Of a stretch of DNA of 37,370 bases, positions 3,572 to 9,624 are shown one piece after another. The notes below the pieces were generated by a model. It saw only the letters and a program-made list of their open reading frames with translations. It ran no database searches and had not been told where the DNA came from. Position numbers and translations under genes: made by a program. The stretch is from Peptococcaceae bacterium. GTDB lineage: Bacteria; Bacillota; Desulfitobacteriia; Desulfitobacteriales; Syntrophobotulaceae. Position 1 is the stretch's first letter, and every line of letters starts with the position of its first letter. The stretch covers positions 1 to 37,370 of the forward strand of contig JAAYUV010000087.1 in assembly GCA_012517475.1 (NCBI GenBank), in the 5' to 3' direction.

Positions 3572-4051
3572 CTAAATACAAAAAAGATCTGTGTATGTAT
3601 CTTTTATTATGAGCATCTCATCAAGGCACTCAAGGAAAACATCAATTAAATGAGGATCAAATTGTTTGCCTCGTTCTTCTTTGAAAAGGTTAATGATCCG
3701 GTCTAGTTCCCACGCTTTTTTATAACAGCGGTCACTGGCAAGAGCATCAAAAACATCCGTAACGGCGGTGATTCTTCCGAAAATATGAATTTCCTCCTCT
3801 TTAAGTCCTAGTGGATAACCTTTACCGTTCCATTTTTCATGATGCTGGTGAGAGATAATGGAAGCGGCCCGGATGATTTTTCTCTGTGAACTTTTTAATA
3901 GATTAAATCCTATTTCTGTATGGGTTTTCATAAGGGTAAATTCTTCTTCGGTAAGCTTCCCGGGTTTCGTGAGAATGGAATCAGGGATACCAACCTTGCC
4001 AATATCATGCATGGGTGAGGCCATTTTAAGCAGCTCGGCATCAGCCGGACC
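3572..4051 (-). pseudogene. HD-GYP domain protein, 5'-truncated remnant
   Basis: Reading the minus strand from about 4051 to the TAG at 3572-3574 gives the C-terminal part of an HD-GYP domain: GPADAELLKMASPMHDIGKV, DSILTKPGKLTEEEF, and the GYP motif HHEKWNGKGYPLGL, then VTDVFDALASDR. HD-GYP proteins are c-di-GMP phosphodiesterases. The HD and GYP motifs are intact, but the first helix of the domain and any sensory N-terminus are missing. The open frame continues upstream to 4168, but that part reads through the opposite-strand cyclase gene and does not resemble HD-GYP. Homology stops at the same point where the cyclase homology starts. No start codon or ribosome site is seen at the break, so I call it a pseudogene. 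Confidence 0.85.
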
Positions 4052-5627
4052 TAAAATTGATAAAATTTCTAAAAGCGGGGCAACAGCGGTTTGGGCAGAT
4101 ATTTTGTTTTCAGAAAAAACAAACCCTGAAGATGACCAGGCTCTGGCACAAGCCGTAGTCGGCCGCAATAATGTATATTTACCTGTGTATTTTCAGGTTA
4201 AGGCATTACAAAAATCTGAGAACGAGCTTGAAGTTGAATACTTAAATCTGCCGGTAATGAATATACCCCAGGAAAGATTGGGGCATATTAATGTTTTGAC
4301 GGACAAGGACAATGTCGTCCGTAAGGCCCTGTTAGGTATCCCTGCTTCAGACGGGAAGATAATCCCTTTGATCGATGTCCGTTTGGCAAATCTTCTCCTT
4401 CCGGAGGACAGCAAGATTACCTGGAACCAAAATTCTATCTGGAAAAGGGGAAAAGAAATCATTCCAGTCAATGAGCGGATGCAAATCGGGTTTTCCTATG
4501 CTTCTTCCCCGCTAAATACCCAATTTGATGTTATTCCCGCCTGGAAAGTAATAAAGGGTGAGATTGATCCGGCCTATTTCGAAAACAGCATTGTTTGATC
4601 GGCCCCTACGCGACAGGATTGCTTGACCAATACACCACAACCATGGCCAAAAGTCAAATGTTTGGAGTGGAAATTCATGCCAATATCATCCAGGCATTTC
4701 TGGATAATGAGCTTTATAGTCATGCATCTGGAAATACTGCCATGCTCGTCGTGGCTTTCATTGCCATGCTGGGATACCTGTTATTTGATTGGCTTAGGGC
4801 AAGACTGGGGGCAGTCATTTTAGTCCTGCTGATCATCGGTTATTCAGGTTTTGTCTATTGCATTTATCAAGCTTATGGCCTGCTGCTGCCCTATTTCTAT
4901 ACTTTGCTGGGGTTAATCATAGCCTATGTTACATCCGTTATTGCCCAGTATCTGAAAGAAAGAAAGAAAGGAAAGGAACAGAATAACCGGTATTTTCGGC
5001 AGGTATGTTTCTAAAGCGGTTGTGGCAGAAATCCTTTCAACCGGTGAAGATATTAAGGTGGGAGGAGTACGGAAAGATGTCTCGTTAATGTTTGTCGATA
5101 TCCGCGGGTTTACTCCGCTGTCAGAGAAAATGCAACCGGAAGAGGTCATTAATATTTTGAATGAATACTTGGATCTATGTACGAAAGCCGTCTTTCAATT
5201 CGAAGGAACTCTGGATAAGTTTATCGGAGATGGAGTTATGAGCATTTTTGGCGTACCCATAGCACAAGAGGATCATGCTGAACGGGCTGTCAGAGCTGCC
5301 TTGGTAATGAAAGCGAATTCCGGAAAACTTGCTGAAGATTTAGAAAAACGCTATGGCAAGAGCGTCTTCTTTGGTATTGGAATTAACTCAGGACCGGCGG
5401 TTATCGGGAATATTGGTTCTCATGATCGTCTTGATTATACTGCAATTGGGGATACGGTAAATCTCGCGGCCAGATTGGAATCCAATGCGAAACCCGGTCA
5501 AATCCTAATTAGCAGTGAAACCTATGATCGGGTTAAACATATGGTACAATGTACAAAGCTCGAACCGATAAAAGTAAAAGGAAAGGAAAAACCTGTAGAG
5601 ATATATCAGGTGGATGGAATTTTATAA
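4052..5627 (+). pseudogene. CHASE2-type adenylate cyclase, 5'-truncated and twice frameshifted
   Basis: The remnant begins in the middle of a CHASE2 sensor (KIDKISKSGATAVWADILF at about 4053), continues past LPVYFQVKALQ, then shifts frame near 4594-4596, where one T seems missing (expected ENSIVLIGPYATG). Next come the end of CHASE2 (GVEIHANIIQAFLD) and two to three membrane helices (about 4738-4960). A second shift near 4993-4996, where one T is extra, is followed by a class III nucleotide cyclase domain (5022-5627). That domain keeps its metal and substrate motifs: LMFVDIRGFTPLSEK, DKFIGDGVMSIFG, AIGDTVNLAARLES. A full-length member would make cAMP in response to an outside signal. Missing N-terminus plus two shifts argue for decay, though homopolymer sequencing errors could explain the shifts alone. 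Confidence 0.88.
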
Positions 5628-6908: not shown

Positions 6909-6938
6909 TTGACAGAAGCCCAAAAAATCATATATAAT
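6909..6938 (+). promoter_or_regulatory. Promoter of the serA T-box leader
   Basis: TTGACA (6909-6914) and TATAAT (6933-6938) are both perfect consensus hexamers, with an 18-bp spacer. Transcription should start near 6945, just ahead of the T-box leader. Confidence 0.85.
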
Positions 6939-6944
6939 CAAAAA

Positions 6945-7166
6945 AATTAATCAAAAACTTTGATGGGGAAGTAGTTTCTGCACGGATGAAGAGAGCCGGT
7001 GGTTGGTGTAAGCCGGTCCGTGATGAAATTATTCCGCCCCGGAGTTCCGGATGATGAATCATGGCGGGTCTGCCCGTTATAGCAGATGAAAGCGGGCCTG
7101 TTTTCTCAGGCAATAAGGGTGGCAACGCGGGAGAACCTCTCGTCCCTAACAGGGATGAGGGGTTTA
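6945..7166 (+). promoter_or_regulatory. T-box leader, serine-specific, upstream of serA-like gene
   Basis: The leader has the stem I elements GGGGAAGTAG and AGAGAGCC-GGTTGGTGTAAGCCGG, the 3' side of the specifier loop (CCCCGGAGTT), the T-box sequence AAGGGTGGCAACGCGG (7115-7130) and a terminator. By comparison with the usual position just before the CCC..GGAGTT segment, the specifier triplet is TCC at 7033-7035, a serine codon. The TGGN of the T-box reads TGGC, whose C would pair with discriminator base G73, as expected for tRNA-Ser. Uncharged tRNA-Ser should stabilise the antiterminator and switch on the downstream gene. Confidence 0.92.
7134..7166 (+). terminator. T-box terminator hairpin
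   Basis: ACCTCTCGTCCCT (from 7135) pairs with AGGGATGAGGGGT (7151-7163) around a short loop, followed by a T-rich stretch. The 5' arm overlaps the sequence the T-box would use for its antiterminator, so the two folds compete. Confidence 0.8.
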
Positions 7167-7192
7167 TGTATATTTTGACGGGGGAAAAAGAA

Positions 7193-8779
7193 ATGAAAAT
7201 TCTGGTAAGCGAAAAAATAGCAGAAGCAGGGATAAAACTGCTGCGCCAAGAACATGAAGTTGATACTTTTTGTTCCTTGACTATGGAAGAATTGGTTAAA
7301 ATGATCCCTGAATACGATGCATTGATTGTTCGGGGAGATACTCCGGTAAGCAGTGAAGTCATTGAAGCGGGTAATAATTTGAAAGTGATAGGGAGAGCGG
7401 GCTTGGAAGTTGAACATATTGACATTCAAGCGGCTACCAAAAAAGGGATAATTGTATTAAACGCCCCTCAGGGAAACAGTGCTTCCACGATCGAGTATGC
7501 GATGGGGATGATTTTAGCTCTCAGTCGTAAAATTCCTCAGGCTTATTCTTCCGTTAAAAATGGGAAATGGGAAAGACAAAAATTTATCGGAATGGAGATT
7601 CGGGAAAAGGTCCTGGGTGTGATTGGTTTGGGACGCGTCGGAACGGGTGTAGCCCGGAGAGCCCGGGCTTTCGATATGCGGGTTATTGCTTACGATCCGT
7701 TTATCAGTGAAGAAAAGGCAAAAGAAATAGGAATAGAGTTATTGGATTTTGAGGAAGTTTTACATAAGGCTGACTATATTACTTTACATCTTCCAACCAC
7801 GGTCGATACCAGAAACCTCTTTAATCAAGAAGCGTTCTCCAAGATGAAAAAAGGTGTAAGAATAATCAATTGCGCCAGGGGGGGAATCATAGATGAAGCG
7901 GCCCTGATCTGGGCGCTTCAGGAGGGAATTGTGGCGGAAGCTGCTCTGGATGGCTTTGGAGAAGACCCGGTTGACTTGTCTAATCCGTTATTAACCATGG
8001 AGAATGTGATTTGTACCCCGCGTATTGCTTCCAGAACCAAAGAAGCAGAAAATGAAGTCGCCATCGGAGTAGCTAAAGGAGTGCTTTCCGCCTTACGGTC
8101 GGAACCGGTGGCTACCTCATTAAATATCCCGCCTGTATCCAAAGATGTCATGGATACAATCAAACCATATCTAAATCTTATGGAAAAAATGGGGGTATTG
8201 GCTGTTCACCTTACTGAAGGCAGAATTAAACATGTTGAGGTAAAATATAACGGCGAGATCAGTCTGGTAGATACCAAGATGCTGACTCTGGCAGTGATCA
8301 AGGGAGTATTAAATCCCATTCTGCAGGAAGCCGTTAATTTTGTAAATGCGCCTGAAGTTGCTAAAGCCAGAGGGATTATTGTCAACGAAGTAAAAAGTAA
8401 AGAAGCCAAGAACTTTCTGGATTTAATTACGGTTACCGTAAGAACGGACAAAAGTGAGCACCGTGTTGCCGGGACACTGTTTGGTAAAATAGAGGGACGG
8501 ATTGTCGAGATTGACAATTTCAGAGTGGATGTTGATCCGGTAGGCTGGCTTTTACTAATCCCGCATGAAGACTATCCCGGGATGGTTGGTAAAGTTGGAA
8601 CGATTCTAGGCGAAAACCAAATTAACATTACCGGTATGCAAGTTGGCAAAACGGAAGCGATTGGTACAAATATCATGATTGTTGGGGTACAAACCGATAT
8701 TAATTTTCCCGTTATGAATAAACTCAAAGAACAGATCGGAATCCAGAGCGTAAAAAAAGTGAATTTTGATATTGAATAG
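7193..8779 (+). CDS. serA: D-3-phosphoglycerate dehydrogenase homologue with altered active site
   Basis: This 528-residue protein has the long SerA layout: substrate and NAD domains (about 1-310), an intervening allosteric domain (about 320-445) and a C-terminal ACT domain (about 455-528, HEDYPGMVGKVGTILGENQ). The NAD motif GLGRVGTGVARRA and catalytic Arg229 (NCARGGIID) are present. The Glu expected before Pro in the FExEP segment is Asp258 (GFGEDP), and the catalytic His of the TPH motif is Arg277 (CTPRIASRT). The substrate loop reads GRAGLEVEHID instead of the usual GRAGVGVDNID. The serine T-box and ACT domain argue for a role in serine synthesis, but normal dehydrogenase activity is doubtful. 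The ATG at 7193, eight bases after GGGGG, is preferred; the frame stays open upstream to 7061 but that lies in the T-box. Confidence 0.88.
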   Translation: MKILVSEKIAEAGIKLLRQEHEVDTFCSLTMEELVKMIPEYDALIVRGDTPVSSEVIEAGNNLKVIGRAGLEVEHIDIQAATKKGIIVLNAPQGNSASTIEYAMGMILALSRKIPQAYSSVKNGKWERQKFIGMEIREKVLGVIGLGRVGTGVARRARAFDMRVIAYDPFISEEKAKEIGIELLDFEEVLHKADYITLHLPTTVDTRNLFNQEAFSKMKKGVRIINCARGGIIDEAALIWALQEGIVAEAALDGFGEDPVDLSNPLLTMENVICTPRIASRTKEAENEVAIGVAKGVLSALRSEPVATSLNIPPVSKDVMDTIKPYLNLMEKMGVLAVHLTEGRIKHVEVKYNGEISLVDTKMLTLAVIKGVLNPILQEAVNFVNAPEVAKARGIIVNEVKSKEAKNFLDLITVTVRTDKSEHRVAGTLFGKIEGRIVEIDNFRVDVDPVGWLLLIPHEDYPGMVGKVGTILGENQINITGMQVGKTEAIGTNIMIVGVQTDINFPVMNKLKEQIGIQSVKKVNFDIE

Positions 8780-8790
8780 GAGAGATTTGG

Positions 8791-9624
8791 GTGTCACTAA
8801 AATTCGGAACAGCAGGAGTGCCATTATCTGCAAAAGAAGGTTCAACTGAGGCCGGCGTCCGGAGAGTTAGGGAATTGGGACTTGATGCGATGGAAGTTGA
8901 ATTTGTCCATGGAGTCAGGATGAGAGAAGAAAAGGCTTTTCTTGTACGAAAAGTTGCTGAAGAAACACAGGTATCGCTATCCTGTCATGCCCCCTATTAT
9001 ATTAATCTCAATTCCAACGAAGAAGAAAAAGTAATCGCCAGTAAAACCCGCATTGTTCAAACCGCACAAATAGCAGAATGTCTGGGAGCAGGAAGTATTG
9101 TTTTCCATCCCGCATTTTATTCCGAAAATTCTTCCGATGCCGTTTTAAAGAAAGTAGTAAAGGAACTTTCCGATGTTAGAGAAGAACTCGACCAAAAAGG
9201 AAATAAGGTGATTTTAAGGCCTGAAACCACGGGCAAACCAACACAATTCGGAGATTTAGAGGAGACAATCCAAATTTCAAAAGAAATTCTCGGGGTCTTA
9301 CCATGTATTGATTTCAGTCATCTTCATGCCAGATCAAACGGATTATATAATTCCTATGATGAATTTTGTTCAATCTTGGACAAAGCAGCTGAAGGACTTG
9401 GCCAGGTTTGGGTAGAAAATGCCCATTTTCATATTTCCGGTATCGAATATGGACCAAAAGGGGAAAAGAAACATCTTATTCTCCAGGAGGCGGATTTCAA
9501 GGCAGAGCAATTAATCAAAGCGATAATCAGTTTTGGAATATCAGGGACAGTCATTTGTGAGAGCCCCAATCTTGAAGGAGATACCTTGACCCTGCAAAAA
9601 ATCTATCAAGGATTAATAGTTTAA
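8791..9624 (+). CDS. Endonuclease IV-like TIM-barrel protein
   Basis: This 277-residue protein resembles the AP-endonuclease 2/Nfo family. Expected metal-ligand positions can be seen in order: SCHAPYYINL, FHPAFY, LRPETTG, CIDFSHLHAR, ENAHFHISG and ICESPNLEGD. Enzymes of this family cut DNA at abasic sites using three zinc ions; some relatives are sugar isomerases, but the HAPYYINLN and PETTGK segments favour an Nfo-like role. It starts at GTG 8791, after AGGAGAG, 11 bases behind serA, so it should share the serine-responsive transcript. No reason for that link is evident. A hairpin terminator follows at 9673. Confidence 0.85.
   Translation: MSLKFGTAGVPLSAKEGSTEAGVRRVRELGLDAMEVEFVHGVRMREEKAFLVRKVAEETQVSLSCHAPYYINLNSNEEEKVIASKTRIVQTAQIAECLGAGSIVFHPAFYSENSSDAVLKKVVKELSDVREELDQKGNKVILRPETTGKPTQFGDLEETIQISKEILGVLPCIDFSHLHARSNGLYNSYDEFCSILDKAAEGLGQVWVENAHFHISGIEYGPKGEKKHLILQEADFKAEQLIKAIISFGISGTVICESPNLEGDTLTLQKIYQGLIV

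Follow-up and report, generated by a model that had tools for sequence, protein, structure and literature searches.

The gene at the centre of this analysis, which we call serA*, lies in a 37,370-nucleotide stretch of DNA from a Peptococcaceae bacterium (the window), and we tentatively read its product as a remodelled, non-standard descendant of SerA, most likely a pseudo-dehydrogenase whose cleft is closed by two residues, Glu72 and Arg277. Across most of the window's family, Arg277 has taken the place of the proton-donor histidine and Glu72 that of the substrate-cradling glycine, with the catalytic Arg229 and Glu258 left to drift; the NAD motif and the ACT serine residues have been retained, as have Arg47 and Arg128, which grip phosphate and carboxylate. 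To judge from these residues, such a protein probably does not have normal 3-phosphoglycerate dehydrogenase activity. The features of the locus are collected in Table 1.

Table 1. Features of the serA* locus, in window coordinates.
Feature	Positions	Strand	Basis
Sigma-70-type promoter, TTGACA-18-TATAAT	6909..6938	+	Sequence; recurs in relatives
T-box leader, tRNA-Ser riboswitch	6951..7150	+	RF00230, 101.1 bits, E 2.4e-21
Specifier codon UCC (Ser)	7033..7035	+	Rfam alignment
T-box sequence AGGGTGGCAACGCGGGA, with UGGC at 7120-7123	7116..7132	+	Rfam alignment, sequence
Intrinsic terminator hairpin CCTCTCGTCCC...GGGATGAGGGG and short T run	7134..7168	+	Fold; relatives
Ribosome-binding site GGGGGA, 7 nt 5' of ATG	7180..7185	+	Sequence
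serA*, 528-aa type-1 PGDH-fold protein with Glu72/Arg229/Asp258/Arg277	7193..8779	+	ORF, profile scores, domains, alignments, fold model
Xylose-isomerase-like TIM barrel (AP_endonuc_2), 11 bases 3' of serA*	8791..9624	+	PF01261, 103.2 bits

By its overall make-up serA* is a type-1 SerA: its match to the TIGR01327 profile reaches 618.7 bits, well over the cut-off of 454, and spans residues 2-524, and it carries the four expected domains, namely substrate (PF00389), NAD (PF02826), intervening (PF19304, PGDH_inter, ASB) and ACT (PF01842). A longer version of the reading frame would start at 7061, within the T-box; it is the start at 7193 that has a ribosome-binding site. Alignment with M. tuberculosis PGDH places the catalytic Arg/Glu/His positions where the preliminary description had put them, at Arg229 (kept), Asp258 (a conservative replacement) and Arg277 (in place of His), and the loop GRAGLEVEHID and the motif IEYA also read as it gave them. 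A conserved histidine elsewhere in the site was looked for and none was seen, His75 being Gln in genus g4 and His199 the ordinary histidine of the TLHLP motif. The substrate-carboxylate glycine of the beta4-alpha4 loop is replaced by Glu72, and the ACT residues that match the serine-binding set of the E. coli type (His, Asn/Asp, Asn) are in place. The solved structures that best match a fold model of residues 1-312 (pLDDT 81.5) are those of human, maize and M. tuberculosis PGDH, at TM-scores of only ~0.55 and with large rmsd, perhaps because the angle between the two domains differs. The full-length model is poor (pLDDT 66.8), residues 276-282 falling below pLDDT 50. Two of the four viral-contig scans for serA* relatives yielded none, and the other two supplied extra rows for the model.

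We collected homologues from 82 genomes and aligned 23 sequences from the window's family, whose genera are labelled g1-g11 (g2 is presumably Dehalobacter and g7 Syntrophobotulus), with 9 outgroup sequences. The same-genus relative of the window's genome is 'Ca. Dichloromethanomonas elyunquensis', which GTDB places in the class Desulfitobacteriia (PMC10327494). Arg277 is present in 20 of the 23 family sequences and in none of the outgroup, all nine of which are canonical at the active site. This rules out a sequencing error, as had already been argued. Arg277 is always found together with Glu72 (20/20; genera g1, g2, g4, g5, g6, g8, g9 and g10), and about seven additional sites, of which several lie close to the active site, are fixed in the Arg277 set and differ in all outgroups (S48G, V71L, T96S, A98S, G279A, Q286E, N410D). 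Residues 72, 229, 258 and 277 of serA* correspond to Gly73, Arg230, Glu259 and His277 of the 2-hydroxyacid dehydrogenases (2HADHs), which are more than 90% conserved across all of these enzymes and hold the substrate from two facing domains (PMC6303947). The earlier proposal of linked active-site changes thus holds across the lineage for Arg277, and the loop that it listed merely as different turns out to contain the lineage-wide change of Gly72 to Glu. It does not hold for the catalytic glutamate: Asp258 is private to the window's genome, 15 of the 20 Arg277 sequences (that of the same-genus relative included) having Glu, and the replacement is therefore not part of the lineage-wide change. 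On the best tree Arg277 arose by two changes, and the AU test does not reject a tree with one Arg277 clade (p 0.076). As for the remaining family sequences, the single one from g7 retains Gly72 and His277. The two from g11 have Asp72, a T[SA]HQ motif (His at 277, followed by Gln) and a deletion of approximately residues 125-131, and represent an independent decay of the same SerA in genomes that have a second one.

Among the 20 Arg277 sequences, residue 229 is Arg in 15, Lys in 2 and His in 3, and residue 258 is Glu in 15, Asp in 1, Gly in 1 and lost in 3; Gly231 has changed to Glu in 3 of them, and the ACT residue Asp460 is Asp in 15 and Asn in the rest. Invariant throughout are Arg47, Arg128, Glu72, Arg277, the GxGxxG motif with Asp168, His458 and Asn478. 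The gene is under purifying selection, with dN/dS values of 0.05-0.11 where pairs are unsaturated (canonical pairs from the sister family give 0.05), and its identity within the window's genus is 87.5%, compared with 74% and 78% for the two flanking genes. In g6, Arg229, Gly231 and Glu258 are all gone, yet dN/dS is 0.09. Thus, a single function common to the whole Arg277 clade would need neither Arg229 nor Glu258, and it does seem, from the pattern of conservation, to need Glu72, Arg277, NAD and probably serine. A frozen Arg277/Glu72 pair beside a drifting Arg/Glu pair favours a non-standard or non-catalytic role for the protein, and would be compatible with catalysis. The gene is full-length in 23 genomes, two of them with one internal stop-like extension at the end; G003 has only a broken copy and G011 none, and both of these genomes possess a second SerA. 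The broken copy lies in three pieces in different frames, with a worn terminator relic upstream, in a genome that has a serC-serA387 pair.

Another way to view these changes is in terms of the geometry of the active site. The two newly invariant residues occupy positions that contact the substrate from either side of the cleft, and we therefore infer that Glu72, in the substrate domain, and Arg277, in the NAD domain, face one another across it and could form a salt bridge. Such a bridge would fill the place of the substrate's carboxylate, with the predicted result that 3-phosphoglycerate would no longer be oxidised via the His-Glu route. The protein might then be a pseudo-dehydrogenase that binds NAD and serine and helps to sense or regulate the supply of serine; in the window's genus it would be made when tRNA-Ser is uncharged. 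The invariance of Arg47 and Arg128, which hold the substrate, argues against this reading.

The leader of serA* is a T-box, as the preliminary description had proposed. The RF00230 match covers the full model (1-219) and lies above the gathering score of 93, and the leader has Stem I with its specifier, the pairing with the tRNA NCCA end and the terminator/antiterminator. The discriminator base of tRNA-Ser is G, and the UGGC of the T-box sequence would pair with the discriminator G-CCA of the tRNA. The UCC motif stands at the same T-box place in five relatives, namely the same-genus genome, which carries the same leader (RF00230, 85.9 bits), and four sister-family serA genes; together with the specifier in the window, this supports the suggested link between expression and serine tRNA charging. 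The leaders of the two same-genus genomes share ~80% identity while the synonymous sites of the gene are near saturation (pS 0.73), and the leader therefore appears to be under selection; alifold on these two sequences gave no compensatory base changes in the T-box. An intact T-box is confined to the window's genus. Where a leader is still recognisable in other genera, the T-box is largely gone and Rfam no longer detects it; the terminator relic alone persists, g7 and g10 also keeping a stump of the T-box sequence. A promoter of the form TTGACA-(17-18)-TATAAT stands 5' of serA* in most other family genera examined. Since the T-box is worn elsewhere, tRNA-Ser control is a feature of the window's genus and not of the whole protein family, and within that genus the intact T-box suggests a need for the product under serine shortage. 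At one canonical sister-family serA (L032:1072-1450), two T-box sequences, GGGTGGCAACGCGG (~1234) and GGGTGGCACCGCGG (~1323), stand in tandem 5' of the gene.

The neighbourhood shows serA* to be descended from the SerA of a serine operon; in the sister family this SerA is canonical, and the same UCC T-box precedes it. The sister-family loci have all or part of the order class-V aminotransferase, serA, PspA-like histidine phosphatase, TIM barrel. The first and third of these genes no longer adjoin serA in the window's family, where serA* stays, in most genera together with the TIM barrel. The TIM barrel gene, whose product in the window has no NCBIfam match at E 1e-20, is the next gene 3' of serA* in most of the family; in the sister family it remains close to the canonical serA even with a phosphatase gene between. 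Further upstream in the window, a CHASE2-adenylate/guanylate cyclase gene (3858-5627, plus strand) is split into three ORFs in two frames (3858-4598, 4595-5014 and 5022-5627), by either a frameshift or an assembly error; in a relative (L056:8387-10177, minus strand) a single 596-aa ORF matches the cyclase part.

The genomic setting is an apparently incomplete serine pathway. A search for a second serA, as suggested in the preliminary description, found none in the window's genome (98% complete), and no SerC or 387-aa SerA either; serA* is the only SerA of the TIGR01327 type there. Also missing from this genome are a PspA-type phosphatase over the cut-off and glycine decarboxylase. Present are serine hydroxymethyltransferase, the class-V aminotransferase common to all SerC-less members, a serine-dehydratase-like sequence (C113) and a trio of short 2-hydroxyacid dehydrogenases whose triads are intact, any of which might help serine supply. 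Dehalobacter genomes are without phosphoserine phosphatase, though D. restrictus grows without serine (PMC4751268). In some other family genera an operon of its own (serC-serA) encodes SerC and a 387-aa SerA: SerC and the 387-aa SerA co-occur in g2, g3, g5, g6, g8 and g11, and neither is found in g1, g4, g7, g9 and g10. We considered whether serA* could simply regulate the 387-aa SerA, but so simple a model fails because eleven family genomes carry the gene without having this enzyme (the gene has Arg277 in ten of them, including the window's, and His in one). In those eleven, residue 258 is always acidic and residue 229 is Arg in 10, whereas the acid at 258 has been lost in 6 of the 12 genomes with a 387-aa SerA (Fisher 0.014, from few independent events). 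Only two independent pairs bear on triad decay against possession of a second SerA, which is not significant, and the association is suggestive; retention of the acid where no other SerA exists may be a sign that serA* still works as an enzyme in such genomes. Two side observations concern further loci. In G000, contig C12:35153-35639 holds the remnant of another 2-hydroxyacid dehydrogenase gene in two short frames. In the sister-family genome G062, contig C3:90062-91138 encodes a SerC that shares 86% identity with its Dehalobacter-like counterpart, in addition to the genome's own SerC, and is likely a contaminating contig (the genome has 8% contamination).

The preliminary description had left a choice between a regulatory protein, another substrate and a changed mechanism; ordinary SerA catalysis is now unlikely, and the sequence separates none of the three from the others. 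A changed mechanism is possible, if less probable than the pseudo-dehydrogenase: serA* would still be an NAD-dependent dehydrogenase of 3-phosphoglycerate or a related 2-hydroxyacid, feeding serine where there is no other SerA, with Arg277, probably together with Glu72, transferring the proton. Arginine seldom releases a proton, although the type IIIK SerA, with Lys for His and no Glu, offers a precedent (PMC6303947, PMC6300728). The invariant Arg47, Arg128 and NAD motif would be explained, but the change of Gly72 to Glu abolishes a near-universal substrate contact, and g6 keeps its gene without Arg229 and Glu258. Likewise, being the sole SerA of a genome that also lacks glycine decarboxylase, behind an intact serine T-box, fits an enzyme in use, yet the rest of the 3-phosphoglycerate pathway, SerC and a PspA-type phosphatase, was not found in the same genome; and against the acidic residue 258 of all genomes without another SerA stands G009, such a genome, where Arg229 is Lys. 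The fuller proposal, that in a type-1 lineage arginine and a new cradle glutamate replaced the proton-transfer histidine and that the enzyme still feeds serine synthesis under tRNA-Ser control, as part of the serine route in Dehalobacter-like bacteria, we rate slightly lower still.

It is unlikely that the pocket has instead been retuned for another acid (one held by Arg277, for example, or by way of formate or phosphite oxidation without proton transfer) and serine control simply inherited. Formate oxidation is indeed the one 2HADH reaction that needs no proton transfer (PMC6303947), and the block S48G, V71L, G72E, T96S, A98S, H277R and G279A looks like a pocket switched and then frozen. However, the neighbouring genes give no sign of a pathway of this kind, an enzyme of unrelated chemistry would hardly be expected under tight serine T-box control, and Arg229, which orients substrate across the superfamily, is lost in 5 of 20 sequences. 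Very improbable, finally, is a serine-operon relic on its way out without important function, for while the lost operon partners, the T-box worn to a terminator in most genera and the losses in G003 and G011 would suit it, the near-canonical dN/dS, the 23 full-length copies, the frozen clade-specific residues and a leader far more conserved than synonymous sites would not.

The significance of these changes lies in serine synthesis, which in the window's family has a gap at the phosphoserine phosphatase that Dehalobacter genomes are without; here the SerA of the family as a whole has lost its proton-donor histidine and cradle glycine, and several genera, the window's included, are without SerC and a second SerA. 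If serA* is a pseudoenzyme, it is a serine-responsive one annotated as a working dehydrogenase (TIGR01327 is an equivalog), and would mislead metabolic models of dechlorinating bacteria; if it is catalytic, it represents a new catalytic solution within a textbook enzyme family.

Compared with known systems, serA* agrees with type-1 SerA (M. tuberculosis 1ygy, human PHGDH, TIGR01327) in its four domains, full-length alignment, NAD motif, Arg47, Arg128, Arg229 and the ACT serine-binding His/Asp/Asn, and departs from it in Arg277 for His, Glu72 for the cradle Gly, Gly for Ser48 and Asp for Glu258. A SerA with Lys for His is known and active (PMC6303947, PMC6300728), and all other PGDH types use histidine according to a review (PMC6300728); we found no description of an arginine-for-histidine SerA in the open-access literature. 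That type, IIIK (Entamoeba and Bacteroidetes; PDB 4njo), shares with serA* the replacement of the catalytic histidine by a basic residue, but it is a two-domain enzyme with Lys at this position, without ASB/ACT, with no reported change of the cradle Gly and with proven activity, and serA*, with Arg and four domains, falls outside it. The 2HADH subfamilies X4 (His to Trp, Glu lost) and X13 (Gly73 lost) are natural losses in conserved subfamilies of unknown function (PMC6303947), for which ASB/ACT domains are not described; serA* combines both kinds of change in a type-1 SerA. In its control serA* resembles the serA of Paenibacillus polymyxa (PMC8002221), in which a serine T-box sets transcription via antitermination, except that the specifier there is AGC, here UCC, and that the P. 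polymyxa SerA is required for growth without serine (PMC8002221).
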